This document shows positions 1-60,610 of a stretch of 64,000 nucleotides of DNA, piece by piece. Position 1 is the first letter of the stretch. The number at the start of each line of letters is the position of its first letter. The notes beneath the pieces are model-generated. The model saw nothing but the letters and a program-made list of their open reading frames with translations, was not told where the DNA came from and searched no databases. The stretch covers positions 178,142,247-178,206,246 of the forward strand of contig CP136064.1 in the NCBI GenBank assembly GCA_032622095.1. Reading direction: 5' to 3'. This DNA comes from Siphonodentalium dalli (Eukaryota; Mollusca; Scaphopoda; Gadilida; Siphonodentaliidae). The position numbers and the translations under genes were made by a program.

Positions 1-110
1 TTATATGCTGTGCGCATAATATTCTGGCCTTAAAATTTGGCGCCACAAACTTCTCAAATAGATATCACCCGTTTTGTGCAGAAAGCAAATGGTGGCCCCA
101 CTAGCAACCA

Positions 111-205
111 GCCCGGTTAGCTCAGTCGGTAGAGCATCAGACTTTTAAGAGTCTGCTAAATTCAGAGTCATCTGAGGGTCATGGGTTCAAGTCCCATATC
201 GGGCG
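111..205 (+). tRNA. tRNA-Lys-TTT: tRNA-Lys(TTT) with 22-nt intron, copy 1
   Basis: This decodes AAA/AAG lysine codons. The acceptor stem is 111-117 paired with 198-204, with discriminator G205. The D-arm reads TAGCTCAGTCGGTAGAGC (A box). The anticodon stem is TCAGA (137-141) with TCTGA (171-175). The loop is C142, T143, anticodon TTT at 144-146, A147, and A170 after splicing. Bases 148-169 are a 22-nt intron in the canonical place, one base 3' of the anticodon. The T-arm is ATGGG, loop TTCAAGT, CCCAT (181-197), the B box. Without the intron the gene is 73 nt. No CCA is encoded, as expected for a nuclear gene. A T5 terminator lies at about 213-217. Intron-bearing tRNA-Lys is unusual among animals, to my knowledge. 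Confidence 0.95.
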
Positions 206-468
206 ACGTTAGTTTTTATACTCGAAAACGATGCACCATCTCGGTTTCCATCACAAAATCATAACACCCGACCACCTGGTTCCCAATTGGATAGTTTACA
301 AACATCAAATAGCGTGTTTGCGCAATACACAATAAAATCGAGCCCCAAATTATTCCACTTATATGCTGTGCGCATAATATTCTGGCCTTAAAATTTGGCG
401 CCACAAACTTCTCAAATAGATATCACCCGTTTTGTGCAGAAAGCAAATGGTGGCCCCACTAGCAACCA

Positions 469-563
469 GCCCGGTTAGCTCAGTCGGTAGAGCATCAGAC
501 TTTTAAGAGTCTGCTAAATTCAGAGTCATCTGAGGGTCATGGGTTCAAGTCCCATATCGGGCG
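469..563 (+). tRNA. tRNA-Lys-TTT: tRNA-Lys(TTT), copy 2
   Basis: Identical by eye to copy 1, intron included. Confidence 0.94.
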
Positions 564-826
564 ACGTTAGTTTTTATACTCGAAAACGATGCACCATCTC
601 GGTTTCCATCACAAAATCATAACACCCGACCACCTGGTTCCCAATTGGATAGTTTACAAACATCAAATAGCGTGTTTGCGCAATACACAATAAAATCGAG
701 CCCCAAATTATTCCACTTATATGCTGTGCGCATAATATTCTGGCCTTAAAATTTGGCGCCACAAACTTCTCAAATAGATATCACCCGTTTTGTGCAGAAA
801 GCAAATGGTGGCCCCACTAGCAACCA

Positions 827-921
827 GCCCGGTTAGCTCAGTCGGTAGAGCATCAGACTTTTAAGAGTCTGCTAAATTCAGAGTCATCTGAGGGTCATGG
901 GTTCAAGTCCCATATCGGGCG
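827..921 (+). tRNA. tRNA-Lys-TTT: tRNA-Lys(TTT), copy 3
   Basis: Identical by eye to copy 1. The spacer after it carries the extra C. Confidence 0.94.
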
Positions 922-1185
922 ACGTTAGTTTTTATACTCGAAAACGATGCACCATCTCGGTTTCCATCACAAAATCATAACACCCGACCACCTGGTTCCC
1001 AATTGGATAGTTTACAAACATCAAATAGCGTGTTTGCGCAATACACAATAAAATCGAGCCCCAAATTATTCCACTTATATGCTGTGCGCATAATATTCTG
1101 GCCTTAAAATTTGGCGCCACAAACTTCTCAAATAGATATCACCCGTTTTGTGCAGAAAGCAAATGGTGGCCCCCACTAGCAACCA

Positions 1186-1280
1186 GCCCGGTTAGCTCAG
1201 TCGGTAGAGCATCAGACTTTTAAGAGTCTGCTAAATTCAGAGTCATCTGAGGGTCATGGGTTCAAGTCCCATATCGGGCG
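1186..1280 (+). tRNA. tRNA-Lys-TTT: tRNA-Lys(TTT), copy 4, in the only variant unit
   Basis: The tRNA itself is unchanged. It is shifted one base by an extra C upstream, and the spacer downstream lacks one A (near 1,360), which restores the period. Confidence 0.94.
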
Positions 1281-1542
1281 ACGTTAGTTTTTATACTCGA
1301 AAACGATGCACCATCTCGGTTTCCATCACAAAATCATAACACCCGACCACCTGGTTCCCATTGGATAGTTTACAAACATCAAATAGCGTGTTTGCGCAAT
1401 ACACAATAAAATCGAGCCCCAAATTATTCCACTTATATGCTGTGCGCATAATATTCTGGCCTTAAAATTTGGCGCCACAAACTTCTCAAATAGATATCAC
1501 CCGTTTTGTGCAGAAAGCAAATGGTGGCCCCACTAGCAACCA

Positions 1543-1637
1543 GCCCGGTTAGCTCAGTCGGTAGAGCATCAGACTTTTAAGAGTCTGCTAAATTCAGAGT
1601 CATCTGAGGGTCATGGGTTCAAGTCCCATATCGGGCG
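1543..1637 (+). tRNA. tRNA-Lys-TTT: tRNA-Lys(TTT), copy 5
   Basis: Identical by eye to copy 1; 357 bp after copy 4. Confidence 0.94.
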
Positions 1638-1900
1638 ACGTTAGTTTTTATACTCGAAAACGATGCACCATCTCGGTTTCCATCACAAAATCATAACACC
1701 CGACCACCTGGTTCCCAATTGGATAGTTTACAAACATCAAATAGCGTGTTTGCGCAATACACAATAAAATCGAGCCCCAAATTATTCCACTTATATGCTG
1801 TGCGCATAATATTCTGGCCTTAAAATTTGGCGCCACAAACTTCTCAAATAGATATCACCCGTTTTGTGCAGAAAGCAAATGGTGGCCCCACTAGCAACCA

Positions 1901-1995
1901 GCCCGGTTAGCTCAGTCGGTAGAGCATCAGACTTTTAAGAGTCTGCTAAATTCAGAGTCATCTGAGGGTCATGGGTTCAAGTCCCATATCGGGCG
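1901..1995 (+). tRNA. tRNA-Lys-TTT: tRNA-Lys(TTT), copy 6
   Basis: Identical by eye to copy 1. Confidence 0.94.
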
Positions 1996-2258
1996 ACGTT
2001 AGTTTTTATACTCGAAAACGATGCACCATCTCGGTTTCCATCACAAAATCATAACACCCGACCACCTGGTTCCCAATTGGATAGTTTACAAACATCAAAT
2101 AGCGTGTTTGCGCAATACACAATAAAATCGAGCCCCAAATTATTCCACTTATATGCTGTGCGCATAATATTCTGGCCTTAAAATTTGGCGCCACAAACTT
2201 CTCAAATAGATATCACCCGTTTTGTGCAGAAAGCAAATGGTGGCCCCACTAGCAACCA

Positions 2259-2353
2259 GCCCGGTTAGCTCAGTCGGTAGAGCATCAGACTTTTAAGAGT
2301 CTGCTAAATTCAGAGTCATCTGAGGGTCATGGGTTCAAGTCCCATATCGGGCG
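2259..2353 (+). tRNA. tRNA-Lys-TTT: tRNA-Lys(TTT), copy 7
   Basis: Identical by eye to copy 1. Confidence 0.94.
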
Positions 2354-2616
2354 ACGTTAGTTTTTATACTCGAAAACGATGCACCATCTCGGTTTCCATC
2401 ACAAAATCATAACACCCGACCACCTGGTTCCCAATTGGATAGTTTACAAACATCAAATAGCGTGTTTGCGCAATACACAATAAAATCGAGCCCCAAATTA
2501 TTCCACTTATATGCTGTGCGCATAATATTCTGGCCTTAAAATTTGGCGCCACAAACTTCTCAAATAGATATCACCCGTTTTGTGCAGAAAGCAAATGGTG
2601 GCCCCACTAGCAACCA

Positions 2617-2711
2617 GCCCGGTTAGCTCAGTCGGTAGAGCATCAGACTTTTAAGAGTCTGCTAAATTCAGAGTCATCTGAGGGTCATGGGTTCAAGTCC
2701 CATATCGGGCG
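2617..2711 (+). tRNA. tRNA-Lys-TTT: tRNA-Lys(TTT), copy 8
   Basis: Identical by eye to copy 1. Confidence 0.94.
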
Positions 2712-2974
2712 ACGTTAGTTTTTATACTCGAAAACGATGCACCATCTCGGTTTCCATCACAAAATCATAACACCCGACCACCTGGTTCCCAATTGGATAG
2801 TTTACAAACATCAAATAGCGTGTTTGCGCAATACACAATAAAATCGAGCCCCAAATTATTCCACTTATATGCTGTGCGCATAATATTCTGGCCTTAAAAT
2901 TTGGCGCCACAAACTTCTCAAATAGATATCACCCGTTTTGTGCAGAAAGCAAATGGTGGCCCCACTAGCAACCA

Positions 2975-3069
2975 GCCCGGTTAGCTCAGTCGGTAGAGCA
3001 TCAGACTTTTAAGAGTCTGCTAAATTCAGAGTCATCTGAGGGTCATGGGTTCAAGTCCCATATCGGGCG
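2975..3069 (+). tRNA. tRNA-Lys-TTT: tRNA-Lys(TTT), copy 9
   Basis: Identical by eye to copy 1. Confidence 0.94.
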
Positions 3070-3332
3070 ACGTTAGTTTTTATACTCGAAAACGATGCAC
3101 CATCTCGGTTTCCATCACAAAATCATAACACCCGACCACCTGGTTCCCAATTGGATAGTTTACAAACATCAAATAGCGTGTTTGCGCAATACACAATAAA
3201 ATCGAGCCCCAAATTATTCCACTTATATGCTGTGCGCATAATATTCTGGCCTTAAAATTTGGCGCCACAAACTTCTCAAATAGATATCACCCGTTTTGTG
3301 CAGAAAGCAAATGGTGGCCCCACTAGCAACCA

Positions 3333-3427
3333 GCCCGGTTAGCTCAGTCGGTAGAGCATCAGACTTTTAAGAGTCTGCTAAATTCAGAGTCATCTGAGGG
3401 TCATGGGTTCAAGTCCCATATCGGGCG
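3333..3427 (+). tRNA. tRNA-Lys-TTT: tRNA-Lys(TTT), copy 10
   Basis: Identical by eye to copy 1. Confidence 0.94.
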
Positions 3428-3690
3428 ACGTTAGTTTTTATACTCGAAAACGATGCACCATCTCGGTTTCCATCACAAAATCATAACACCCGACCACCTG
3501 GTTCCCAATTGGATAGTTTACAAACATCAAATAGCGTGTTTGCGCAATACACAATAAAATCGAGCCCCAAATTATTCCACTTATATGCTGTGCGCATAAT
3601 ATTCTGGCCTTAAAATTTGGCGCCACAAACTTCTCAAATAGATATCACCCGTTTTGTGCAGAAAGCAAATGGTGGCCCCACTAGCAACCA

Positions 3691-3785
3691 GCCCGGTTAG
3701 CTCAGTCGGTAGAGCATCAGACTTTTAAGAGTCTGCTAAATTCAGAGTCATCTGAGGGTCATGGGTTCAAGTCCCATATCGGGCG
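3691..3785 (+). tRNA. tRNA-Lys-TTT: tRNA-Lys(TTT), copy 11
   Basis: Identical by eye to copy 1. Confidence 0.94.
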
Positions 3786-4048
3786 ACGTTAGTTTTTATA
3801 CTCGAAAACGATGCACCATCTCGGTTTCCATCACAAAATCATAACACCCGACCACCTGGTTCCCAATTGGATAGTTTACAAACATCAAATAGCGTGTTTG
3901 CGCAATACACAATAAAATCGAGCCCCAAATTATTCCACTTATATGCTGTGCGCATAATATTCTGGCCTTAAAATTTGGCGCCACAAACTTCTCAAATAGA
4001 TATCACCCGTTTTGTGCAGAAAGCAAATGGTGGCCCCACTAGCAACCA

Positions 4049-4143
4049 GCCCGGTTAGCTCAGTCGGTAGAGCATCAGACTTTTAAGAGTCTGCTAAATT
4101 CAGAGTCATCTGAGGGTCATGGGTTCAAGTCCCATATCGGGCG
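4049..4143 (+). tRNA. tRNA-Lys-TTT: tRNA-Lys(TTT), copy 12
   Basis: Identical by eye to copy 1. Confidence 0.94.
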
Positions 4144-4406
4144 ACGTTAGTTTTTATACTCGAAAACGATGCACCATCTCGGTTTCCATCACAAAATCAT
4201 AACACCCGACCACCTGGTTCCCAATTGGATAGTTTACAAACATCAAATAGCGTGTTTGCGCAATACACAATAAAATCGAGCCCCAAATTATTCCACTTAT
4301 ATGCTGTGCGCATAATATTCTGGCCTTAAAATTTGGCGCCACAAACTTCTCAAATAGATATCACCCGTTTTGTGCAGAAAGCAAATGGTGGCCCCACTAG
4401 CAACCA

Positions 4407-4501
4407 GCCCGGTTAGCTCAGTCGGTAGAGCATCAGACTTTTAAGAGTCTGCTAAATTCAGAGTCATCTGAGGGTCATGGGTTCAAGTCCCATATCGGGC
4501 G
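4407..4501 (+). tRNA. tRNA-Lys-TTT: tRNA-Lys(TTT), copy 13
   Basis: Identical by eye to copy 1. Confidence 0.94.
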
Positions 4502-4764
4502 ACGTTAGTTTTTATACTCGAAAACGATGCACCATCTCGGTTTCCATCACAAAATCATAACACCCGACCACCTGGTTCCCAATTGGATAGTTTACAAACA
4601 TCAAATAGCGTGTTTGCGCAATACACAATAAAATCGAGCCCCAAATTATTCCACTTATATGCTGTGCGCATAATATTCTGGCCTTAAAATTTGGCGCCAC
4701 AAACTTCTCAAATAGATATCACCCGTTTTGTGCAGAAAGCAAATGGTGGCCCCACTAGCAACCA

Positions 4765-4859
4765 GCCCGGTTAGCTCAGTCGGTAGAGCATCAGACTTTT
4801 AAGAGTCTGCTAAATTCAGAGTCATCTGAGGGTCATGGGTTCAAGTCCCATATCGGGCG
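4765..4859 (+). tRNA. tRNA-Lys-TTT: tRNA-Lys(TTT), copy 14
   Basis: Identical by eye to copy 1. Confidence 0.94.
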
Positions 4860-5122
4860 ACGTTAGTTTTTATACTCGAAAACGATGCACCATCTCGGTT
4901 TCCATCACAAAATCATAACACCCGACCACCTGGTTCCCAATTGGATAGTTTACAAACATCAAATAGCGTGTTTGCGCAATACACAATAAAATCGAGCCCC
5001 AAATTATTCCACTTATATGCTGTGCGCATAATATTCTGGCCTTAAAATTTGGCGCCACAAACTTCTCAAATAGATATCACCCGTTTTGTGCAGAAAGCAA
5101 ATGGTGGCCCCACTAGCAACCA

Positions 5123-5217
5123 GCCCGGTTAGCTCAGTCGGTAGAGCATCAGACTTTTAAGAGTCTGCTAAATTCAGAGTCATCTGAGGGTCATGGGTTC
5201 AAGTCCCATATCGGGCG
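5123..5217 (+). tRNA. tRNA-Lys-TTT: tRNA-Lys(TTT), copy 15
   Basis: Identical by eye to copy 1. Confidence 0.94.
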
Positions 5218-5480
5218 ACGTTAGTTTTTATACTCGAAAACGATGCACCATCTCGGTTTCCATCACAAAATCATAACACCCGACCACCTGGTTCCCAATT
5301 GGATAGTTTACAAACATCAAATAGCGTGTTTGCGCAATACACAATAAAATCGAGCCCCAAATTATTCCACTTATATGCTGTGCGCATAATATTCTGGCCT
5401 TAAAATTTGGCGCCACAAACTTCTCAAATAGATATCACCCGTTTTGTGCAGAAAGCAAATGGTGGCCCCACTAGCAACCA

Positions 5481-5575
5481 GCCCGGTTAGCTCAGTCGGT
5501 AGAGCATCAGACTTTTAAGAGTCTGCTAAATTCAGAGTCATCTGAGGGTCATGGGTTCAAGTCCCATATCGGGCG
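5481..5575 (+). tRNA. tRNA-Lys-TTT: tRNA-Lys(TTT), copy 16
   Basis: Identical by eye to copy 1. Confidence 0.94.
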
Positions 5576-5838
5576 ACGTTAGTTTTTATACTCGAAAACG
5601 ATGCACCATCTCGGTTTCCATCACAAAATCATAACACCCGACCACCTGGTTCCCAATTGGATAGTTTACAAACATCAAATAGCGTGTTTGCGCAATACAC
5701 AATAAAATCGAGCCCCAAATTATTCCACTTATATGCTGTGCGCATAATATTCTGGCCTTAAAATTTGGCGCCACAAACTTCTCAAATAGATATCACCCGT
5801 TTTGTGCAGAAAGCAAATGGTGGCCCCACTAGCAACCA

Positions 5839-5933
5839 GCCCGGTTAGCTCAGTCGGTAGAGCATCAGACTTTTAAGAGTCTGCTAAATTCAGAGTCATC
5901 TGAGGGTCATGGGTTCAAGTCCCATATCGGGCG
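5839..5933 (+). tRNA. tRNA-Lys-TTT: tRNA-Lys(TTT), copy 17
   Basis: Identical by eye to copy 1. Confidence 0.94.
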
Positions 5934-6196
5934 ACGTTAGTTTTTATACTCGAAAACGATGCACCATCTCGGTTTCCATCACAAAATCATAACACCCGAC
6001 CACCTGGTTCCCAATTGGATAGTTTACAAACATCAAATAGCGTGTTTGCGCAATACACAATAAAATCGAGCCCCAAATTATTCCACTTATATGCTGTGCG
6101 CATAATATTCTGGCCTTAAAATTTGGCGCCACAAACTTCTCAAATAGATATCACCCGTTTTGTGCAGAAAGCAAATGGTGGCCCCACTAGCAACCA

Positions 6197-6291
6197 GCCC
6201 GGTTAGCTCAGTCGGTAGAGCATCAGACTTTTAAGAGTCTGCTAAATTCAGAGTCATCTGAGGGTCATGGGTTCAAGTCCCATATCGGGCG
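6197..6291 (+). tRNA. tRNA-Lys-TTT: tRNA-Lys(TTT), copy 18
   Basis: Identical by eye to copy 1. Confidence 0.94.
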
Positions 6292-6554
6292 ACGTTAGTT
6301 TTTATACTCGAAAACGATGCACCATCTCGGTTTCCATCACAAAATCATAACACCCGACCACCTGGTTCCCAATTGGATAGTTTACAAACATCAAATAGCG
6401 TGTTTGCGCAATACACAATAAAATCGAGCCCCAAATTATTCCACTTATATGCTGTGCGCATAATATTCTGGCCTTAAAATTTGGCGCCACAAACTTCTCA
6501 AATAGATATCACCCGTTTTGTGCAGAAAGCAAATGGTGGCCCCACTAGCAACCA

Positions 6555-6649
6555 GCCCGGTTAGCTCAGTCGGTAGAGCATCAGACTTTTAAGAGTCTGC
6601 TAAATTCAGAGTCATCTGAGGGTCATGGGTTCAAGTCCCATATCGGGCG
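6555..6649 (+). tRNA. tRNA-Lys-TTT: tRNA-Lys(TTT), copy 19
   Basis: Identical by eye to copy 1. Confidence 0.94.
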
Positions 6650-6912
6650 ACGTTAGTTTTTATACTCGAAAACGATGCACCATCTCGGTTTCCATCACAA
6701 AATCATAACACCCGACCACCTGGTTCCCAATTGGATAGTTTACAAACATCAAATAGCGTGTTTGCGCAATACACAATAAAATCGAGCCCCAAATTATTCC
6801 ACTTATATGCTGTGCGCATAATATTCTGGCCTTAAAATTTGGCGCCACAAACTTCTCAAATAGATATCACCCGTTTTGTGCAGAAAGCAAATGGTGGCCC
6901 CACTAGCAACCA

Positions 6913-7007
6913 GCCCGGTTAGCTCAGTCGGTAGAGCATCAGACTTTTAAGAGTCTGCTAAATTCAGAGTCATCTGAGGGTCATGGGTTCAAGTCCCATA
7001 TCGGGCG
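6913..7007 (+). tRNA. tRNA-Lys-TTT: tRNA-Lys(TTT), copy 20
   Basis: Identical by eye to copy 1. Confidence 0.94.
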
Positions 7008-7270
7008 ACGTTAGTTTTTATACTCGAAAACGATGCACCATCTCGGTTTCCATCACAAAATCATAACACCCGACCACCTGGTTCCCAATTGGATAGTTTA
7101 CAAACATCAAATAGCGTGTTTGCGCAATACACAATAAAATCGAGCCCCAAATTATTCCACTTATATGCTGTGCGCATAATATTCTGGCCTTAAAATTTGG
7201 CGCCACAAACTTCTCAAATAGATATCACCCGTTTTGTGCAGAAAGCAAATGGTGGCCCCACTAGCAACCA

Positions 7271-7365
7271 GCCCGGTTAGCTCAGTCGGTAGAGCATCAG
7301 ACTTTTAAGAGTCTGCTAAATTCAGAGTCATCTGAGGGTCATGGGTTCAAGTCCCATATCGGGCG
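7271..7365 (+). tRNA. tRNA-Lys-TTT: tRNA-Lys(TTT), copy 21
   Basis: Identical by eye to copy 1. Confidence 0.94.
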
Positions 7366-7628
7366 ACGTTAGTTTTTATACTCGAAAACGATGCACCATC
7401 TCGGTTTCCATCACAAAATCATAACACCCGACCACCTGGTTCCCAATTGGATAGTTTACAAACATCAAATAGCGTGTTTGCGCAATACACAATAAAATCG
7501 AGCCCCAAATTATTCCACTTATATGCTGTGCGCATAATATTCTGGCCTTAAAATTTGGCGCCACAAACTTCTCAAATAGATATCACCCGTTTTGTGCAGA
7601 AAGCAAATGGTGGCCCCACTAGCAACCA

Positions 7629-7723
7629 GCCCGGTTAGCTCAGTCGGTAGAGCATCAGACTTTTAAGAGTCTGCTAAATTCAGAGTCATCTGAGGGTCAT
7701 GGGTTCAAGTCCCATATCGGGCG
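7629..7723 (+). tRNA. tRNA-Lys-TTT: tRNA-Lys(TTT), copy 22
   Basis: Identical by eye to copy 1. Confidence 0.94.
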
Positions 7724-7986
7724 ACGTTAGTTTTTATACTCGAAAACGATGCACCATCTCGGTTTCCATCACAAAATCATAACACCCGACCACCTGGTTC
7801 CCAATTGGATAGTTTACAAACATCAAATAGCGTGTTTGCGCAATACACAATAAAATCGAGCCCCAAATTATTCCACTTATATGCTGTGCGCATAATATTC
7901 TGGCCTTAAAATTTGGCGCCACAAACTTCTCAAATAGATATCACCCGTTTTGTGCAGAAAGCAAATGGTGGCCCCACTAGCAACCA

Positions 7987-8081
7987 GCCCGGTTAGCTCA
8001 GTCGGTAGAGCATCAGACTTTTAAGAGTCTGCTAAATTCAGAGTCATCTGAGGGTCATGGGTTCAAGTCCCATATCGGGCG
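7987..8081 (+). tRNA. tRNA-Lys-TTT: tRNA-Lys(TTT), copy 23
   Basis: Identical by eye to copy 1. Confidence 0.94.
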
Positions 8082-8344
8082 ACGTTAGTTTTTATACTCG
8101 AAAACGATGCACCATCTCGGTTTCCATCACAAAATCATAACACCCGACCACCTGGTTCCCAATTGGATAGTTTACAAACATCAAATAGCGTGTTTGCGCA
8201 ATACACAATAAAATCGAGCCCCAAATTATTCCACTTATATGCTGTGCGCATAATATTCTGGCCTTAAAATTTGGCGCCACAAACTTCTCAAATAGATATC
8301 ACCCGTTTTGTGCAGAAAGCAAATGGTGGCCCCACTAGCAACCA

Positions 8345-8439
8345 GCCCGGTTAGCTCAGTCGGTAGAGCATCAGACTTTTAAGAGTCTGCTAAATTCAGA
8401 GTCATCTGAGGGTCATGGGTTCAAGTCCCATATCGGGCG
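8345..8439 (+). tRNA. tRNA-Lys-TTT: tRNA-Lys(TTT), copy 24
   Basis: Identical by eye to copy 1. Confidence 0.94.
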
Positions 8440-8702
8440 ACGTTAGTTTTTATACTCGAAAACGATGCACCATCTCGGTTTCCATCACAAAATCATAACA
8501 CCCGACCACCTGGTTCCCAATTGGATAGTTTACAAACATCAAATAGCGTGTTTGCGCAATACACAATAAAATCGAGCCCCAAATTATTCCACTTATATGC
8601 TGTGCGCATAATATTCTGGCCTTAAAATTTGGCGCCACAAACTTCTCAAATAGATATCACCCGTTTTGTGCAGAAAGCAAATGGTGGCCCCACTAGCAAC
8701 CA

Positions 8703-8797
8703 GCCCGGTTAGCTCAGTCGGTAGAGCATCAGACTTTTAAGAGTCTGCTAAATTCAGAGTCATCTGAGGGTCATGGGTTCAAGTCCCATATCGGGCG
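8703..8797 (+). tRNA. tRNA-Lys-TTT: tRNA-Lys(TTT), copy 25
   Basis: Identical by eye to copy 1. Confidence 0.94.
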
Positions 8798-9060
8798 ACG
8801 TTAGTTTTTATACTCGAAAACGATGCACCATCTCGGTTTCCATCACAAAATCATAACACCCGACCACCTGGTTCCCAATTGGATAGTTTACAAACATCAA
8901 ATAGCGTGTTTGCGCAATACACAATAAAATCGAGCCCCAAATTATTCCACTTATATGCTGTGCGCATAATATTCTGGCCTTAAAATTTGGCGCCACAAAC
9001 TTCTCAAATAGATATCACCCGTTTTGTGCAGAAAGCAAATGGTGGCCCCACTAGCAACCA

Positions 9061-9155
9061 GCCCGGTTAGCTCAGTCGGTAGAGCATCAGACTTTTAAGA
9101 GTCTGCTAAATTCAGAGTCATCTGAGGGTCATGGGTTCAAGTCCCATATCGGGCG
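9061..9155 (+). tRNA. tRNA-Lys-TTT: tRNA-Lys(TTT), copy 26
   Basis: Identical by eye to copy 1. Confidence 0.94.
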
Positions 9156-9418
9156 ACGTTAGTTTTTATACTCGAAAACGATGCACCATCTCGGTTTCCA
9201 TCACAAAATCATAACACCCGACCACCTGGTTCCCAATTGGATAGTTTACAAACATCAAATAGCGTGTTTGCGCAATACACAATAAAATCGAGCCCCAAAT
9301 TATTCCACTTATATGCTGTGCGCATAATATTCTGGCCTTAAAATTTGGCGCCACAAACTTCTCAAATAGATATCACCCGTTTTGTGCAGAAAGCAAATGG
9401 TGGCCCCACTAGCAACCA

Positions 9419-9513
9419 GCCCGGTTAGCTCAGTCGGTAGAGCATCAGACTTTTAAGAGTCTGCTAAATTCAGAGTCATCTGAGGGTCATGGGTTCAAGT
9501 CCCATATCGGGCG
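9419..9513 (+). tRNA. tRNA-Lys-TTT: tRNA-Lys(TTT), copy 27
   Basis: Identical by eye to copy 1. Confidence 0.94.
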
Positions 9514-9776
9514 ACGTTAGTTTTTATACTCGAAAACGATGCACCATCTCGGTTTCCATCACAAAATCATAACACCCGACCACCTGGTTCCCAATTGGAT
9601 AGTTTACAAACATCAAATAGCGTGTTTGCGCAATACACAATAAAATCGAGCCCCAAATTATTCCACTTATATGCTGTGCGCATAATATTCTGGCCTTAAA
9701 ATTTGGCGCCACAAACTTCTCAAATAGATATCACCCGTTTTGTGCAGAAAGCAAATGGTGGCCCCACTAGCAACCA

Positions 9777-9871
9777 GCCCGGTTAGCTCAGTCGGTAGAG
9801 CATCAGACTTTTAAGAGTCTGCTAAATTCAGAGTCATCTGAGGGTCATGGGTTCAAGTCCCATATCGGGCG
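9777..9871 (+). tRNA. tRNA-Lys-TTT: tRNA-Lys(TTT), copy 28
   Basis: Identical by eye to copy 1. Confidence 0.94.
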
Positions 9872-10134
9872 ACGTTAGTTTTTATACTCGAAAACGATGC
9901 ACCATCTCGGTTTCCATCACAAAATCATAACACCCGACCACCTGGTTCCCAATTGGATAGTTTACAAACATCAAATAGCGTGTTTGCGCAATACACAATA
10001 AAATCGAGCCCCAAATTATTCCACTTATATGCTGTGCGCATAATATTCTGGCCTTAAAATTTGGCGCCACAAACTTCTCAAATAGATATCACCCGTTTTG
10101 TGCAGAAAGCAAATGGTGGCCCCACTAGCAACCA

Positions 10135-10229
10135 GCCCGGTTAGCTCAGTCGGTAGAGCATCAGACTTTTAAGAGTCTGCTAAATTCAGAGTCATCTGAG
10201 GGTCATGGGTTCAAGTCCCATATCGGGCG
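10135..10229 (+). tRNA. tRNA-Lys-TTT: tRNA-Lys(TTT), copy 29
   Basis: Identical by eye to copy 1. Confidence 0.94.
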
Positions 10230-10492
10230 ACGTTAGTTTTTATACTCGAAAACGATGCACCATCTCGGTTTCCATCACAAAATCATAACACCCGACCACC
10301 TGGTTCCCAATTGGATAGTTTACAAACATCAAATAGCGTGTTTGCGCAATACACAATAAAATCGAGCCCCAAATTATTCCACTTATATGCTGTGCGCATA
10401 ATATTCTGGCCTTAAAATTTGGCGCCACAAACTTCTCAAATAGATATCACCCGTTTTGTGCAGAAAGCAAATGGTGGCCCCACTAGCAACCA

Positions 10493-10587
10493 GCCCGGTT
10501 AGCTCAGTCGGTAGAGCATCAGACTTTTAAGAGTCTGCTAAATTCAGAGTCATCTGAGGGTCATGGGTTCAAGTCCCATATCGGGCG
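10493..10587 (+). tRNA. tRNA-Lys-TTT: tRNA-Lys(TTT), copy 30
   Basis: Identical by eye to copy 1. Confidence 0.94.
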
Positions 10588-10850
10588 ACGTTAGTTTTTA
10601 TACTCGAAAACGATGCACCATCTCGGTTTCCATCACAAAATCATAACACCCGACCACCTGGTTCCCAATTGGATAGTTTACAAACATCAAATAGCGTGTT
10701 TGCGCAATACACAATAAAATCGAGCCCCAAATTATTCCACTTATATGCTGTGCGCATAATATTCTGGCCTTAAAATTTGGCGCCACAAACTTCTCAAATA
10801 GATATCACCCGTTTTGTGCAGAAAGCAAATGGTGGCCCCACTAGCAACCA

Positions 10851-10945
10851 GCCCGGTTAGCTCAGTCGGTAGAGCATCAGACTTTTAAGAGTCTGCTAAA
10901 TTCAGAGTCATCTGAGGGTCATGGGTTCAAGTCCCATATCGGGCG
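10851..10945 (+). tRNA. tRNA-Lys-TTT: tRNA-Lys(TTT), copy 31
   Basis: Identical by eye to copy 1. Confidence 0.94.
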
Positions 10946-11208
10946 ACGTTAGTTTTTATACTCGAAAACGATGCACCATCTCGGTTTCCATCACAAAATC
11001 ATAACACCCGACCACCTGGTTCCCAATTGGATAGTTTACAAACATCAAATAGCGTGTTTGCGCAATACACAATAAAATCGAGCCCCAAATTATTCCACTT
11101 ATATGCTGTGCGCATAATATTCTGGCCTTAAAATTTGGCGCCACAAACTTCTCAAATAGATATCACCCGTTTTGTGCAGAAAGCAAATGGTGGCCCCACT
11201 AGCAACCA

Positions 11209-11303
11209 GCCCGGTTAGCTCAGTCGGTAGAGCATCAGACTTTTAAGAGTCTGCTAAATTCAGAGTCATCTGAGGGTCATGGGTTCAAGTCCCATATCGG
11301 GCG
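11209..11303 (+). tRNA. tRNA-Lys-TTT: tRNA-Lys(TTT), copy 32 (last)
   Basis: Identical by eye to copy 1. Its downstream spacer runs on normally for about 240 bp before the array ends. Confidence 0.94.
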
Positions 11304-11543
11304 ACGTTAGTTTTTATACTCGAAAACGATGCACCATCTCGGTTTCCATCACAAAATCATAACACCCGACCACCTGGTTCCCAATTGGATAGTTTACAAA
11401 CATCAAATAGCGTGTTTGCGCAATACACAATAAAATCGAGCCCCAAATTATTCCACTTATATGCTGTGCGCATAATATTCTGGCCTTAAAATTTGGCGCC
11501 ACAAACTTCTCAAATAGATATCACCCGTTTTGTGCAGAAAGCA

Positions 11544-12372
11544 CCACAACTAGCTATTTCGTTTCGTCGGAAATACAAAAAAATATTTAAATTAGCTCCG
11601 CCCTGCGTCAAAATGAAGATTACCCTTTTTGCGACCAGATATTTGCAATTGCGTTCAAACAGGCATTTATCCGCCATTTCGCGTGAAATCGAGTTCACCA
11701 ACTATCAGGGAATTCTCGATTTGATAGATTTCATCTTTTTTGCGACCACGATGAGTCTCAATTTACTAGAACTGTACGGTGTATACGATGAACTCTTCGA
11801 GATTATGACCTTTAGAAGCCACGCCCATCAACCGAAAGATTTTTGCCACATATATTAAAACCTCCATGGCTCCTGGGTGCCTTGACTTATGAAGATGTCA
11901 CATGCGCGGTTGGACAGGAGACATTCTCGACTATAATATGGTGTGATGGTTCATAGCGATATCTTAATTGTCTGTATTTATTAGAGACATTTCGTGAGAG
12001 TTTAGTTTCAAGCATCATGCCGCTATTACCAAAGGGTCGCATCATGCACCGTCACATGGAACCACAAGTCACGGGTTGCGCTAAAGACCGAGCAGAAAGA
12101 AAATAGAGTATTAAATGTGATAGAATTAATTTTTAATGATATTACATTCCACAATAATAGATAACATTTAAACTTCAGTGCAATTAGATATGACAATATG
12201 GTGTTCGTAAACCTCGGAATAAATTAACGCGAGTCATTGAAATCTTCTGCTCGGTATACATACAGTAAGGTAACTGACTATCTCTGTGTAAATGAAGAGG
12301 CCTAAGAATTATAGGAGATTTTTGGTGTTTGACCTGGTGATATTTGGGCTGCGAACATGTTGCAGGTAGAGG
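11544..12372. other. Array flank with no recognised gene
   Basis: Unique-looking DNA after the tRNA array. A 121-codon plus-strand frame (11,493-11,858) begins inside the last repeat unit and has no family resemblance that I recognise. I see no splice-supported exon, RNA gene or repeat here. Confidence 0.5.
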
Positions 12373-15765: not shown

Positions 15766-16730
15766 AACATTTTTTTTAATTTTATATCACAGATATTCCA
15801 ACCCAGGAGGGTTGTATAAATAGTAACAAATGATTCACATCTGCTCAGTCAACATGTGGTTGCTTATCCTTAAGATTAAAGGCCCACAAGGCACTCGCAG
15901 CAAGTACTAACGGATATAAAGTTATTGAAATTCAACCGACCAAATGTGAGAATGCCACCGTATTGACAAATATAACCTAAAAAGATCTATTTGCTTCTTA
16001 AGGTCTCAAAATTTTACTCATTATGGATTTGCATGAAAATTTATTCTAAGTTTTACATGCAAGAACACTTTTAAAAGGGCACACATGCAATGTTGTACAT
16101 TTCAACAATGTATGATTCCTGAATTACTGCATGCATAAAAATAATCCATGTCTCTTTTTGTGGAAACCCAAAGATGATATTTTATTCTTGAACTCATGCT
16201 GTAATAATGGAAATTAATTAGAAACCATGTGTACAATAAAACAGAACTAAATAAACAAAGAACAGTTTCTAGTTTTGTCTTCTCCCAAACATTGCCTGCT
16301 AATCTATCTTGCACATTTTAACATTGATTAATTTTTGGTAGGCATAAACTGCTTTTTAGTTTGACTGTCTGACAAAATTATATGAAAAATATACTAAATT
16401 CAAGGCAGATGAAAAACTGTTCGGTTTCAAAATGGAGGTTATTTCTATAAAGCTGTTCAGTTTCAAACTGAAGGTTATTTGTATAAAAAAGGACAGACTT
16501 CATGTTTAGAAACACAGTATATTGCCACATACTGCGGAGGTTTAGATTGTAAAATGGTAACTTGGTTGCTAGTAGCTACCGATGGTCAGTTGATTCACAT
16601 GATAGCCAGACATTCCCGTTTTGAGGAAACTGGTTTAGATCATTCAGAGCGCATAACTTAACTTCAAAATTACAGCAAGCAAGATAATCGAATGCATATA
16701 GTCGGCATCTCGGAGCAGAGACCGTAGGAA
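15766..16730. other. Intergenic DNA, no gene seen
   Basis: No supported gene or repeat. This is downstream of the LRRC43 stop codon and may hold part of its 3' untranslated region or polyadenylation site, but I cannot place it. Confidence 0.45.
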
Positions 16731-16732
16731 TA

Positions 16733-16909
16733 CACTAATGCCCTAAATAATCGACTCCTTAACCACAGCAGAATTATGGGTAACTTTTCAGGATTTAGCT
16801 CATCAAGAGCTTTCCGATGAATGGCAACAAGCCATATTTCCGACTAAATCTTGAAAAGTTACCCATCATTCTGCTGTGGTTAAGGAGTCGATTATTTAGG
16901 GCATTAGTG
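16733..16909. mobile_element. TA-target palindromic MITE, copy 1
   Basis: TA is duplicated at 16,731-16,732 and 16,910-16,911. The ends read CACTAATGCCC and GGGCATTAGTG. The two halves are near-perfect inverted copies (TCGACTCCTTAACCACAGCA and its complement), so the transcript folds into one hairpin. The TA target and terminal CA suggest a Tc1/mariner-type non-autonomous element. Confidence 0.85.
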
Positions 16910-17395
16910 TATATGATTAGTTTATACACACATCAATAAGGTGATATCTATCAACGACAGAATGCCAAGTTTTTTCAGCAATTTAATTATGTTGGAATTT
17001 GACAATCTCCTTATCCTCTCCATGGCAAGATGGCCACACAAAACACAACAGCATGAGACTGAGATTCATTTGTCCCCCCAAAATAACCCATAAAAATACA
17101 CAAAATGACCCTTTACTGTTACCTTTAACTCATAACTATTGGTTGATTATAATACACATGAAATTGTTAGCGAAGCAAGCAAGCAAGCGGTTAGACAATA
17201 TTAGTCTTGCACATTTCGCAGTTCAGCGATTGTCGCATAATTATGATTTTCACAAAGCCACCTTGTCATTCAACATTATCGGCATATGTCAAACTTTCAC
17301 GAGTTATATGATGTGGTGCTTTTGCACCGCACCAAGAGTATTTCAATTGCAACCCAAGTTTCTCCGTTTTACAATGTAAACCTCACCACTACATA

Positions 17396-17594
17396 CAGTA
17401 ATGTCCTAAATAATCGACCCCAAATCCACAGCATAATTATGGGAACTTTTTCAGGATTTAGTCGGAAATATGGCTTGCTGCCATTCATCGGAAAGTTCTC
17501 TGTGAGTGGTAACAAGCCATATTTCCGACTATATCCTGAAACATTTCCCATAATTATGCTGTGGTTATAGGGTCATACACTTTGGGCGTTACTG
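17396..17594. mobile_element. TA-target palindromic MITE, copy 2
   Basis: TA flanks (17,394-17,395 and 17,595-17,596), ends CAGTAATGTCC and GGGCGTTACTG. It lies just past the 3' end of LRRC43. Confidence 0.82.
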
Positions 17595-17663
17595 TATGTC
17601 AGAAATCTCTATCTCAGGCTGGTTGATTTAAATTTGAGATATGATAATGACAATCTTGACAGG

Positions 17664-21731: not shown

Positions 21732-22016
21732 CCCTTCCTTGTTAATATTTTGGGAATATACCATATAGTTCAGTGGGCAAGATGACTTTGACAGAGATAC
21801 CCTGTGCCAATGCATTCTCTTCTATATATGAGTCTCCCATAGGGAGCCTCACATATACAAGAGAACACATTGGCCTGACAATATATACTTTGACCTTATA
21901 AGTCAGTGCATTGTCTTATATATGTGAGGCTCCCTATGGGAGACTCGCATAAATAAGAGAATGCACTGGCACAGGGTCTTTAATGCTGCTCAAGCCCAGC
22001 TCCCATCATGAAAGGT
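21732..22016. mobile_element. TTAA-target MITE with two palindromic cores, intron 14
   Basis: TTAA at 21,728-21,731 and 22,017-22,020. The ends are CCCTTCCTTG on the left and CATCATGAAAGG on the right, only partly matched. Two copies of the 'ATTCTCTTATATATG' core lie inside, separated by 'CCTTATAAGTCAGTGCATTG'. It ends 131 bases from exon 14. Confidence 0.6.
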
Positions 22017-29301: not shown

Positions 29302-29598
29302 CAGTAATGCCCTAAATAATCGACTCCATATCCACAGCAGAATTATGTGTAATTTTTCAGGATTTAGTCGGAAATAAGGCTTGTTGCCATATTTCCAACT
29401 AAATCCTGAAAATGACCACAGCAGAATTATGGGTAATTTTTCAGGATTTAGTCGTAAATATGACTTGTTGCCAATCATCAGAAAGCTCTCAGTGAGAGCT
29501 TTCCAATGAATGGCAACAAGCCATATTTCTGACTAAATCCTGAAAAATTACCCATAATTCTGCTGTGGTTAAGGAGTCGATTATTTAGGGCAATACTG
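29302..29598. mobile_element. TA-target palindromic MITE, copy 7, with duplicated arm
   Basis: TA flanks (29,300-29,301 and 29,599-29,600). About 297 bp rather than about 213 bp because an extra arm segment ('ACCACAGCAGAATTATG' twice in a row) is present. It ends 54 bases from exon 11. Confidence 0.8.
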
Positions 29599-30990: not shown

Positions 30991-31000
30991 GGCCTAGTTA

Positions 31001-32655
31001 TGCAAAGAGTAAAAACCAAGATGGCCCCTGGCAGTCATGTTTTTTTGCCAAATGACCCCAAAAAGACTCATTCCCATTTACATGTCATTGTTAACATCCA
31101 TCACAAATTTCATGATGATCTAACAAAAGATACGACCTGTAGCCTGTGTCAAAGGATTTAGTCATGTAAAGAGTAAAATACAAGATGGCTGCTGGCGGCC
31201 ATGTTTTTTGGCCGAATGACCTCAAAATGATTCCTTTCCCATCTACATGTCATTTTTAACATCCATGACAAATCTCATGATGATCAGACCGACGATACAA
31301 CTTGTAGCCGGTGCCAAAGGATTTAGTCATGCAAAGAGTAAAATCCAAGATGGCTGCTGGTGAAGTTTTTTGGCTTAACGACCCCAAAATTACTCGTTCC
31401 CATCTACATGTCAATATTACATGTAACATCCATGACATATTTCATGATGATCAGACGAACAGTACGACCTGTAGCCCATGCTAATAGATTGAATTTTGAA
31501 ATCCAAGATGGCCACTGGTGGCCATGATTTTTTGCCAAATGACCCCAAAATGACTCGTTCCCATCTACATGTCAATATTAACATCCATGACAAATATCAT
31601 GATGATCAGACCAAAGGATTTAGTCTAACAAAGTAAAATCCAAGATGGCTGCTGGTCGCCATGTTTTTTGGCCGAACGACCCCAAAATTACTCGTTCCCA
31701 TCTACATGTCAATATTAACATCCATGACAAATTTAATGATGATCCGAAAAAAGATACGACCTGTAGCCCATGCTAATGGATTGAATTTTGAAATCCAAGA
31801 TGGCCACTGGCGGCCATGTTTTTTGGGCCGAATGACCCCATAATGACTCGTTCCCATCTACATGTCAATATTAACATCCATGACAAATTTCATGAAGATC
31901 CGACCAAAGCTACGACCTGTTGCCCGCGCGAATGGATTTAGTCATGCAAAGAGTAAAATCCAAGATGGCTGCTGGCGGCCATGTTTTTTGGCAGAACGAC
32001 CCCAAGATGACTCGTTCCCATCTACATGCCAATATTAACATCCAAGACAAATTTTATGATGATCAGACAAAATATACGACCTGTAGCCCGTGCTAATGGA
32101 TTGAATTTTGAAATGAAAGAAGGCCACTGGCGGCCGGCCATGTTTTTTGGCCGAATGACCCCAAAAGGACTCGTTCCCATCTACATGTCAATGTCAACAG
32201 CCATGACAAGTTTCATGAAGATCTGATCAAAGGTAGGACCTGTAGCCCGCGCCAAAGAATTTAGTCATGCAAAGAGTAAAATCCAAGATGGCTGCTGGCG
32301 GCCATGTTTTTTGGCCGAACGACCCAAAAATGACTCGTTTCCATCTACATGTCAATATTAACATTCATGACAAATTTCATAATGATCAGACAAACAGTAC
32401 GACCTGTAGCCCGCGCCAATGGATTTAATTTTGAAATCCAAGATGGCCGCCAGCAGCCATGTTTTTTGGCCGAATGACCCCAAAATGACTCGTTCCCATC
32501 TACATGTCAATGTCAACATTCATGACAAATTTCATAAAGATCAGACCAAAGGTACGACCTGTAGCCCGCGCCAAAGGAAATTGTTGACGGACACACAGAC
32601 ACACGGACGCCAAGCCATGGCAATAGCTCAAACTTACAAGGAAGTTGAGCTAATA
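31001..32655 (+). repeat. Tandem array of about ten units of roughly 163 bp, intron 10
   Basis: The unit carries 'CCAAGATGGCTGCTGGCGGC', 'CATGTTTTTTGGCCGAA', 'GACCCCAAAATGACTCGTTC', 'CCATCTACATGTCAATATTA' and 'ACGACCTGTAGCCCG'. Units start near 31,001, 31,165, 31,330, 31,489, 31,627, 31,784, 31,947, 32,105, 32,265 and 32,426. Two alternating versions are visible ('GCAAAGAGTAAAATCC' and 'TTGAATTTTGAAATCC'). The array ends in 'GACGGACACACAGACACACG'. A single unit recurs at 53,390-53,560. The short frames inside are not genes. Confidence 0.88.
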
Positions 32656-35688: not shown

Positions 35689-36073
35689 CCCTTTACCCAA
35701 CAAAACCGGCCAAATAAAGCTTCAACAGCCTAAAATATCTTCGGTCTGTCTCAATAGAACCATACAAATATGGATATCATTGGAACCGGCTCCTTGACCA
35801 CATTGTGATAGTTACAGTTATGCCCTGTGCCAATGCATTCTCTTATATATGCGAGTCGACCATAGGTCGCCTCGCATATATAAGAGAATGCATTGGCCTA
35901 AAAAAAATCTTTTTTTTAAACAATTTTTACCATTTTTTCTTACATTCTTTAACAATTTTATAATTTTTAATGTGTTACGCCAATGCATTCTCTTATATAT
36001 GCGAGGCGACCTATGGTCGACTCGCATATATAAGAGAATGCATTGCTACAGGGCCCTTCTGTTGGGTAAAGGG
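35689..36073 (+). mobile_element. TTAA-target MITE (CCCTTTACCCAACA ends), intron 10
   Basis: TTAA at 35,685-35,688 and 36,074-36,077. Inverted ends CCCTTTACCCAACA and TGTTGGGTAAAGGG. It holds two palindromic 'ATTCTCTTATATATGCGAG' cores about 110 bases apart. A second copy in the opposite orientation lies at 43,437-43,831. piggyBac type by target and ends. It sits 62 bases from exon 10. Confidence 0.88.
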
Positions 36074-43436: not shown

Positions 43437-43831
43437 CCCTTTACCCAACAGAAGGGCCCTGTGCCAATGCATTCTCTTATATATGCGAGTCGACCATAGG
43501 TCGGCCTCGCATATATAAGAGAATGCATTAGGCTTAACACATTAAAAATTATAAAATTGTTAAAGAATGTAAGAAAAATGGTAAAAAGTGTTAAAAAAAA
43601 GATGTTTTTTAGGCCAATGCATTCTCTTATATATGCGAGGCAACCTATGGTCGACTCGCATATATAAGAGAATGCATTGGCACAGGGCATAACTGTAACT
43701 ATCACAATATGGTCAAGGAGCCGGTTCCAATGATATCCATATTTGTATGGTTCTATTGAGACAGACCGAAGATATTTTAGGCTGTTGAAGCTTTTATTTG
43801 GCCGGGTTTGGCCGGTTTGTTGGGTAAAGGG
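43437..43831 (-). mobile_element. TTAA-target MITE (CCCTTTACCCAACA ends), inverted copy, intron 5
   Basis: TTAA at 43,433-43,436 and 43,832-43,835. It is the reverse complement of the element at 35,689-36,073 with only scattered differences, for example one added G in 'GGTCGGCCTCGC'. It ends 28 bases from exon 5. Confidence 0.88.
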
Positions 43832-49065: not shown

Positions 49066-49531
49066 CACTTTCTTTACTGAGTGGATTCTCCCACTCAGTT
49101 ATAAAACTATACATTGGAATGGTCTATTATTCATCTGGATGGGTGTTAAAAAAAATAAGCAAACGTCGATAAATAAATAAAATTGCAGAAGAAGTTTTAT
49201 TTATTGGAGGAAAATGTTTAGATAATACAGTAATGCCCTAAATAATCGACTCCTTAACCACAGCAGAATTATGGGTAACTTTTCAGGATTTAGTCAGAAA
49301 TATGGCTTGTTGCCATTCTTCTGAAAGTTCTCACTGAGAGCTTTCCGATGAATGGCAACAAGCCATATTTCCGACTAAATCCTGAAAAATTACCCATAAT
49401 TCTGCTGTGGTTAAAGAGTCGATTATTTAGGGCATTACTGTATGTTCAACAAAATGAACTTTGTTGAACTTATTATCTGAACATTTCCTAAGGGATAACT
49501 ACTCATCAATGAGTGTTTAGTATAGAAAGGG
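49066..49531. mobile_element. TATACT-family TTAA MITE carrying a nested TA-MITE, intron 2
   Basis: TTAA at 49,062-49,065 and 49,532-49,535. Ends CACTTTCTTTACT and AGTATAGAAAGGG. Taking out the TA-MITE (49,228-49,440) and one TA restores the 'TAGATAATA...GTTCAACAAA' seen in other family members. Confidence 0.88.
49228..49440. mobile_element. TA-target palindromic MITE, copy 8 (213 bp, nested, full length)
   Basis: TA at 49,226-49,227 and 49,441-49,442. CAGTAATGCCC and GGGCATTACTG ends; both arms are nearly perfect mirrors around 'CTCACTGAGAG'. The best-preserved copy together with 53,916-54,128. Confidence 0.92.
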
Positions 49532-53560: not shown

Positions 53561-53915
53561 CTATAAATTGGCAAAACGAACAACTTTAAAGAAGGAAAGG
53601 AATATTGTTGATAAATAAAATTATGAATTAGTTGAAGAATATGTATATACCACTTTCCTTCTTTAAAGTTGTTCGTTTTGCCAATTAATTAAAATTTAAT
53701 TTATAGATGGCCTCCGCGAATTGCTAATGCGAGTTGAGGGACATCCGCAATTTAATTTGAGCGATCGGGACTCCCACACAGCTTTCTTCTGAAGTACATG
53801 TAGGCGCTAGTTAATGAATAATATTATTTAATTGACTGAATGACATCAATAATCAATATTCTTCATCTTATTCACAAATTAGAAGGGGACCTCCCAGCAT
53901 GCATGGGCACGTATA

Positions 53916-54128
53916 CAGTAATTCCCTAAATAATCGACTCCTTAGCCACAGCAGAATTATGGGTAATTTTTCAGGATTTAGTCGGAAATATGGCTTGTTG
54001 CCATTCATCGGAAAGCTCTCACTGAGAGCTTACCGATGAATGGCAACAAGCCATATTTCTGACTAAATCCTGTAAAGTTACCCATAATTATGCTGTGGTT
54101 AAGGAGTCGATTATTTAGGTCATTACTG
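53916..54128. mobile_element. TA-target palindromic MITE, copy 9 (213 bp)
   Basis: TA at 53,914-53,915 and 54,129-54,130; CAGTAATTCCC and GGTCATTACTG ends; full mirrored arms. Confidence 0.88.
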
Positions 54129-54129
54129 T

Positions 54130-60274: not shown

Positions 60275-60610
60275 CCCATGTAGAAAGTCTTGGGACAGAG
60301 CGGGACAAGCGTTACAGACCGAAGCTGATCAATATAGAAGACATGTGTTTCTAGTGTTTATAAATCTGCGTATCAGTAGAAACTCTTGGGACAGAGCGGG
60401 ACAGGTGCCACAGAAGCTTATATAATCAATGTTATCTCGAGTTATCTGCGTCCCAGTAGTAACCCTTGGGGAAGAGCAGGACAAACGTTACATAATTTTA
60501 TAGAATCGTTTTTAATTCTAGTGGTTATCTGCGTATCAATAGAAACTCTTGGGACAGAGCGAGACACGTGTTACAGAAGCTTAAAAAATCTTTTTTATTT
60601 CTAGTTAGCA
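60275..60610 (+). repeat. 85-bp minisatellite cluster A, upstream of LRRC43
   Basis: Units carry 'CTTGGGACAGAGCGGGACA', 'CGTTACAGAAGCTTATAGAA' and 'GGTTATCTGCGTCCCAGTAG'. About four units, beginning some 260 bases before the LRRC43 ATG. Confidence 0.82.

Follow-up and report, generated by a model that had tools for sequence, protein, structure and literature searches.

Intron-bearing tRNA-Lys(TTT) genes in a 358-bp tandem array of at least 32 copies in the scaphopod Siphonodentalium dalli

The DNA analysed here is a 64,000-nt stretch (the window) of contig CP136064.1 of the scaphopod mollusc Siphonodentalium dalli, and its first 11,543 bases form a single tandem array, with a period of 358 bp, 32.2 copies and 99% matches according to TRF (Table 1). 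The units lie head to tail with a tRNA gene in each, as in a tandem tRNA gene array, and exact string matching locates 32 copies of the 95-nt gene. Measured from gene to gene, 29 of the 31 complete units are 358 bp long and mutually identical, and the other two are each off by a one-nucleotide indel, namely a surplus C inside a run of C (unit 3) and an absent A in an AA pair (unit 4); substitutions between the 31 units are zero. Bases 1-110 are the same letters as the end of the unit, and the array therefore continues leftward past the start of the window, while on the right it stops 23 nt short of the next expected gene start. The preliminary description had given at least 32 copies at fixed spacing in an array open at base 1; the TRF period and the first 110 bases bear out the spacing and the open end, and string search and Rfam both give 32 genes.

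Table 1. Coordinates of the array and its parts within the window.
Feature	Position	Strand	Basis
Tandem array, 358-bp unit, 32.2 copies, left end beyond window	1..11543	+	TRF, unit comparison
Reference 358-bp unit (tRNA gene + 263-bp spacer)	111..468	+	29/31 units identical
tRNA-Lys(TTT) gene 1, intron-bearing	111..205	+	RF00005, 62.1 bits
Gene 1, 5' exon (tRNA positions 1-37)	111..147	+	folding, stem comparison
Gene 1, A box TAGCTCAGTCGG	118..129	+	read from sequence; box consensus
Gene 1, 22-nt intron at 37/38, 3-4-3 bulge-helix-bulge possible	148..169	+	folding
Gene 1, 3' exon (tRNA positions 38-73)	170..205	+	folding, stem comparison
Gene 1, B box GGTTCAAGTCC	184..194	+	read from sequence; box consensus
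T5 run, likely Pol III terminator	213..217	+	T-run at unit position 103
tRNA-Lys(TTT) gene 2	469..563	+	Rfam, string search
Unit 3, 359 bp, one surplus C	827..1185	+	unit comparison
tRNA-Lys(TTT) gene 3	827..921	+	Rfam, string search
Unit 4, 357 bp, one A fewer	1186..1542	+	unit comparison
tRNA-Lys(TTT) gene 4	1186..1280	+	Rfam, string search
tRNA-Lys(TTT) gene 5	1543..1637	+	Rfam, string search
tRNA-Lys(TTT) genes 6-31, at 358-bp steps	gene 31 at 10851..10945	+	Rfam, string search
tRNA-Lys(TTT) gene 32, last	11209..11303	+	Rfam, string search
Right edge of array (next gene start would be 23 nt on)	11543..11544	.	unit comparison

Each of the 32 genes matches the Rfam model RF00005 over its full length with 62.1 bits, where the gathering score is 29, and in the one alignment inspected the two aligned sides of the anticodon arm lie 23 nt apart. 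The spliced body forms a complete cloverleaf with standard pairs at 21 of 21 stem positions. It equals human tRNA-Lys-TTT at 67 of 73 positions, and the six differences constitute three compensated pairs (7-66, 49-65 and 50-64). With the intron placed at 37/38, the sequence reads anticodon TTT and G73, in line with the identity rules for lysine. ARAGORN detects 32/32 genes and assigns no anticodon or isotype, with intron mode on or off. An A box and a B box are present, judged by their consensus sequences, and a T5 run begins 8 nt 3' of the gene.

A single 22-nt intron interrupts every gene at 37/38; since A occupies position 37 as well as position 38, moving the intron by one base leaves the spliced RNA unchanged. 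The intron can form a symmetric 3-4-3 bulge-helix-bulge, composed of a 4-bp helix between positions 32-35 and the intron, 3-nt bulges and a 4-bp intron helix, with the anticodon-intron pair C32-G(-3) as its closing pair. Drosophila intron-bearing tRNA genes likewise have a BHB-like helix, and the proximal pair is C-G in 16 of 16 intron-bearing tRNAs of the fly (PMC6614914). In a test devised only after the structure had been seen, 2.8% of 200,000 intron shuffles yield the central helix and 0.057% yield both helices. Free folding pairs the intron with the anticodon arm at -35.9 kcal/mol, compared with -29.9 for the forced cloverleaf and -26.9 for the bulge-helix-bulge, and the C32-G pair has a probability of about 2e-6 in the free ensemble; this unfavourable folding weighs little, because yeast pre-tRNA-Phe (used as control) gives the same energy order, at -30.4, -27.7 and -23.6. 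The intron also carries 6- and 5-nt complements of two anticodon-stem strands, both reached by 0.125% of 20,000 shuffles; an origin of the intron by duplication of the anticodon arm is not claimed, as the complements were spotted post hoc and overlap the constraints of the splice motif. The earlier identification as intron-bearing tRNA-Lys(TTT) stands for 32/32 genes on the Rfam score, the anticodon and the intron. The genes look functional rather than pseudogenic, as judged from the paired stems, the compensated changes and the potential splice motif.

In the rest of the window (about 52 kb), blastn searches for further copies of the unit gave just 12-20 nt matches (E 1.3-4.6) and nhmmer gave zero, and with E values up to 1 Rfam detects no other tRNAs at 11300-64000. 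In a search for decayed units past the right edge, the spacer was aligned locally with the following 600 bases, and on neither strand did the score exceed what shuffling gives, 90/300 and 78/300 shuffles reaching it. A search of 1-830 with Rfam (E <= 1) for a second RNA gene in the spacer returned, besides the tRNA, two minus-strand snR67 matches, which at 17 bits stay below the gathering score of 55. Inside the unit, direct repeats of at least 10 nt are absent and there is a single 10-nt inverted repeat, 90% complementary; its CpG observed/expected ratio is 0.90, a value reached by 38 of 146 other 358-bp tiles and uninformative either way. The surroundings of the array are rich in repeats. 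As for neighbouring protein genes, a comparison of 10 of the window's open frames with Pfam gave one match, under its cut-off.

Tandem tRNA arrays are already known in Entamoeba, plants and zebrafish, and the apparently unusual part of this array is the interrupted lysine tRNA gene in an animal. The intron-bearing tRNA families of Drosophila are Tyr, Leu-CAA and Ile-TAT, and Lys is not known to be among them. Tandem arrays of one gene are not mentioned in the part of the Drosophila article that was available (PMC6614914). The Arabidopsis SYY cluster is similar in having tandem tRNA genes, with introns in its Tyr genes, but its unit comprises one Ser and two Tyr genes instead of one Lys gene, and its 54 clustered tRNA-Tyr genes fall into 32 of a major form and 22 of a minor form, 13 of the 54 giving tRNA-like RNAs, whereas here 32/32 genes are identical (PMC12308677). 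Identical tandem tRNA clusters in plants, with clusters of 26, 18 and 14 for "Cpu", resemble the present array of identical genes, but they are of Ile-AAT and Cys-GCA in a bryophyte, and introns go unmentioned in the text available (PMC12652284). Another Arabidopsis cluster, of tRNA-Cys-GCA, also has one tRNA gene per repeating unit, of 0.4 kb, and differs in having four genes and varying between ecotypes; its abstract mentions no intron (PMC10701932). In the protist Entamoeba, a unit of the tandem arrays holds as many as 5 tRNA genes, separated by microsatellite-like repeats (PMC2652664). Among animals, the tRNA clusters reported for a flatworm genome have at most 6 members (PMC5327563), and many zebrafish tRNA genes lie in highly repetitive clusters that are described as the source of the bona fide maternal tRNAs; the zebrafish clusters differ in covering many isoacceptors, and the available text does not mention a Lys-TTT intron for them (PMC11417395).

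The preliminary description took intron-bearing Lys-TTT genes to be rare in animals. Among the matches listed for the open-licence literature, as titles and abstract starts, none was recognised as describing this array or an intron in an animal Lys-TTT gene. In the available parts of two tRNA-intron reviews, "lys" occurs 0 times in one and once, for archaea, in the other, without an animal Lys intron being named, and the corresponding part of the tRNAscan-SE paper is likewise uninformative about introns in Lys genes. In contig searches, a pattern describing intron-bearing Lys-TTT had 0 matches in viral contigs and 0 in genome contigs; an intronless control pattern had 0 and 8 respectively, all eight titled bacterial MAGs, and these nil results therefore say nothing on animals.

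The array probably consists of genuine nuclear tRNA-Lys(UUU) genes amplified in tandem, a reading drawn from sequence features. RNA polymerase III would transcribe every copy through the internal A and B boxes and terminate at the T5 run. Cleavage after A37 and before A38 would fall to the TSEN endonuclease, and a ligase would join the exons, freeing the 22-nt intron, perhaps in the circular form known from flies. The array may have grown, and its units stayed alike, through unequal crossing-over and gene conversion. The most likely role would be to raise the gene dose of tRNA-Lys(UUU), perhaps in provisioning the egg, a function proposed for the zebrafish repeat-cluster tRNA genes; alternatively, the array may be a largely silent reserve, comparable to the SYY cluster. 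The identity of the units is by itself uninformative on selection for the gene, because the spacer is as constant as the gene.

Satellite and LTR-element readings are weaker than that of genuine genes. The array could be a satellite that arose from a functional or marginal tRNA gene, was amplified by unequal crossing-over and is now silent or heterochromatic, with dispersed genes supplying tRNA-Lys(UUU). We consider this unlikely, if worth serious attention: gene and spacer alike are near-perfectly homogeneous and the surroundings are repeat-rich, and the SYY cluster, although its genes work once relocated, stays silent in the majority of tissues (PMC12308677). The compensated stem changes and the good bulge-helix-bulge, on the other hand, suggest a functional founder. 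The preliminary description had already raised this alternative, which is weakened by the intact gene in 32/32 copies and survives in so far as recent homogenisation alone could yield the same intactness.

Mobile elements are weakened by the zero dispersed copies of the unit in the window's other 52 kb. A tRNA-derived SINE would show dispersed copies, a degenerate tRNA head and a 3' tail, and the intact tRNA body also speaks against it. A miniature LTR element (Helenus-type TRIM) would have two LTRs around an internal part, a primer-binding site and dispersed copies with 4-bp target-site duplications, and a tandem array of such an element, with a tRNA-Lys-like sequence in its LTR, is very improbable here. 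In its favour, the unit contains TGGCGCC, the first 7 nt of the Lys primer-binding site, and the array ends in CA, a common LTR terminus; the lack of direct repeats inside the unit does not count against it, because each unit of a tandem array would comprise a single LTR with a single internal part. However, the match to the primer-binding site is lost beyond these 7 nt, the best ungapped one being 11/18 with the gene's own 3' end, on the plus strand only, and should the LTR contain the tRNA and finish at the right edge, an internal part could span at most 23 bp, although the edge may be a truncation. In the part of the Helenus article available, molluscan LTRs with Lys-TTT-like sequence are aligned with Aplysia tRNA-Lys-TTT and tandem arrays are reported for one zebrafish family, but an internal part described as "only 85 bp" is still 85 bp, isotype model and anticodon conflict in many families, whereas the tRNA body of the present array is intact, the seven bivalve families predicted to encode a tRNA encode Thr, and Helenus has LTRs, a primer-binding site and a polypurine tract, which could not be demonstrated in the present array (PMC10886601). 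Arrays of bivalve TRIMs are also reported (PMC6934838).

Least probable of all is an assembly artefact, in which a short real cluster was lengthened or homogenised by the assembler. The zero substitutions in 31 units would fit it, as would the sole differences, a C in a C run and an A in an AA pair, indels at such runs being a common type of residual error, and the near-identity of the units could partly stem from repeat collapse. Against it, the right edge passes cleanly into unrelated sequence, and tRNA arrays of similar size are reported in two plant studies (PMC12308677, PMC12652284); moreover, an artefact in copy number would not alter the gene or its intron.

The preliminary description had raised the possibility that the array dominates the cellular supply of tRNA-Lys(UUU). 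It is conceivable, though rather doubtful, that in this lineage tRNA-Lys(UUU) acquired an intron and came to be supplied by a single homogenised array, in which case AAA decoding, if only in the egg or germ line, would need splicing of the array transcripts. If so, the intron would mark the array specifically and give rise to abundant 22-nt circular RNA. If the array is merely a silent satellite, it warns against equating tRNA gene counts with supply. The identity of spacer and gene makes the array a good subject for the study of concerted evolution, and the intron would provide a natural marker for telling if tandem tRNA arrays are in use, silenced or reserved for the egg. Intron-bearing Lys-TTT genes in such numbers would lengthen the list of spliced animal tRNAs.

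The left part of the window (1-11543) consists of a single 358-bp repeat in 32.2 copies (TRF), and an exact match count recovered 32 letter-for-letter occurrences of the 95-nt tRNA-Lys(TTT) gene, so that the preliminary description, which had claimed at least 32 such genes at this spacing, each with the same 22-nt intron at 37/38 and in an array open at base 1, is borne out in full. All 32 genes score 62.1 bits over the full length of the tRNA model (Rfam). The gene-to-gene units are identical in 29 of 31 cases, with no substitution in any of the 31; unit 3 carries one additional C, and one A is missing from unit 4. Base 1 falls inside a unit and the array size is therefore a minimum, while a similarity comparison of the flank and the rest of the window revealed no likeness to the 358-bp unit past the right edge at 11543. 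Chance is not an issue as the source of an 11.5-kb array with such identity.

Genuine tRNA-Lys(UUU) genes amplified in tandem are the probable explanation, the strongest rival being a satellite without present function. The intron-free body of 73 nt has standard pairs at 21 of 21 stem positions, the anticodon TTT and G73, and equals human tRNA-Lys-TTT at 67 of 73 positions. The six differences are three pairs altered on both sides (7-66, 49-65 and 50-64), and since both-sided changes are a mark of selection on a working tRNA, the sequence argues for a functional founder of the array; the present-day function of the copies is not deducible from their identity, because the spacer is as constant as the gene. 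The A box TAGCTCAGTCGG and the B box GGTTCAAGTCC both agree with the usual consensus, and a T5 run begins 8 nt downstream of the gene. ARAGORN found 32/32 genes but assigned no anticodon, as part of the intron is drawn into the anticodon stem. The exact 27-nt anticodon-arm region, intronless, also occurs in eight contigs of bacterial metagenome-assembled genomes, seven of them labelled as Deltaproteobacteria, Myxococcota or Myxococcales.

When the cloverleaf is held and a C32-G pair requested, positions 32-35 pair with the third- to sixth-last bases of the intron, flanked by 3-nt bulges (U36-A37-A at intron base 1, and U-C-A38 with intron bases 21-22), beyond which the intron folds into a 4-bp helix with a 7-nt loop. 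Each splice site then falls after the second base of its bulge, the textbook symmetric motif. The proximal pair is of the C-G type in 16/16 intron-bearing Drosophila tRNAs (PMC6614914), and C32-G(-3) is of the same type. Among 200,000 intron shuffles, in a test designed once the motif had been seen, the central helix appeared in 2.8% and the central helix with at least four intron pairs in 0.057%. Counting against the motif, the free minimum-energy fold is lower (-35.9, versus -29.9 with the cloverleaf and -26.9 with the motif) and differs from both, and the anticodon stem is absent from the free ensemble. Since yeast pre-tRNA-Phe, a well-established splicing substrate, ranks alike (-30.4, -27.7 and -23.6), free energy is not discriminating here. 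The intron (148-169 in the first gene) holds complements of 6 and 5 nt to both anticodon-stem strands, and the precursor can thus form two hairpins replacing the anticodon arm.

An array of Helenus-type TRIMs (miniature LTR elements) would fit the last bases of the array, CA, a common LTR end, yet we regard it as very improbable, given that the matching primer site in the unit is limited to 7 contiguous nt, that a right edge equal to the LTR end would leave at most 23 bp of internal part, and that the tRNA body is intact. What makes this reading worth considering is published work that shows molluscan Helenus LTRs aligned with tRNA-Lys-TTT and tandem arrays formed by one fish Helenus family (PMC10886601), and that describes bivalve TRIM arrays that alternate terminal repeats and inner domains (PMC6934838). 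Direct repeats were not found inside one unit, which does not count against TRIMs because a tandem TRIM unit would hold one LTR. An assembly artefact could have inflated or homogenised the copy number, but is unable to create the gene itself.

The 60 best self-matches listed for the rest of the window include eight MITE-like fold-back repeats about 155-230 bp long (see table), each matching its own reverse complement at 78-94%. Plant miRNA family matches (Rfam), all below gathering score, lie on at least three of these repeats and probably just reflect such hairpins. Just past the array edge a motif around TTTTTGCGACCA occurs twice, about 110 nt apart; the alignment score of the two copies, 27, was reached by 0/300 shuffles (highest 25), the regions having been picked after the motif was noticed, and the tRNA spacer holds a vaguely similar TTTTGTGCAG stretch. 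One of ten frames scanned, a 201-codon open frame, weakly matches the reverse-transcriptase zinc finger zf-RVT (PF13966) below cut-off (E = 0.0022) and is probably the end of a LINE. This match and the repeats would be in keeping with an animal genome, and the style of the repeats may be molluscan.

Repeats and other features of the window outside the tRNA array
Feature	Positions	Detail
Fold-back repeats	35822-36054, 43456-43688, 49225-49443, 53912-54132, 29415-29569, 16730-16912, 17391-17599, 21799-21977	self reverse-complement match
Tandem repeat, about 165 and 323 bp	30995-32578	78-88% matches
83-bp-unit array	60364-60605	73% matches; consensus similar to next
83-bp-unit array	62289-62662	77% matches
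TTTTTGCGACCA motif, two copies	11614-11640, 11722-11752	
Open frame with zf-RVT match	57165-57767	

A survey of tRNA genes across eukaryotes, published in 2010, stated that tandem repeats had been reported until then in Entamoeba only (PMC2888827), whose tandem tRNA arrays are described in PMC2652664. Later papers go beyond this statement, with clusters of up to 26 identical tRNA genes in the bryophyte abbreviated Cpu (PMC12652284), repetitive tRNA clusters in zebrafish (PMC11417395), and the Arabidopsis SYY cluster of tRNA-Ser and tRNA-Tyr genes, a tandem array like the present one in which, however, the intron-bearing gene is tRNA-Tyr (PMC12308677). Tandem tRNA arrays as such are already known; the present one seems unusual in that it combines a single isoacceptor with complete identity and with a Lys-TTT intron. 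This combination may be rare in animals. If the copies are genuine tRNA genes, established tRNA biology predicts that Pol III would transcribe every one of them, TSEN would cleave the precursors, the exons would be ligated and the intron released, and the identity of the units suggests that unequal exchange may expand and homogenise them. Its most likely role would be an added gene dose for tRNA-Lys(UUU), possibly to load the egg, as suggested for the repeat clusters of zebrafish, or else a mostly silent reserve of such genes. The latter is by analogy with the SYY cluster, which most tissues keep silent, although its transgenic copies are strongly expressed at other sites (PMC12308677).
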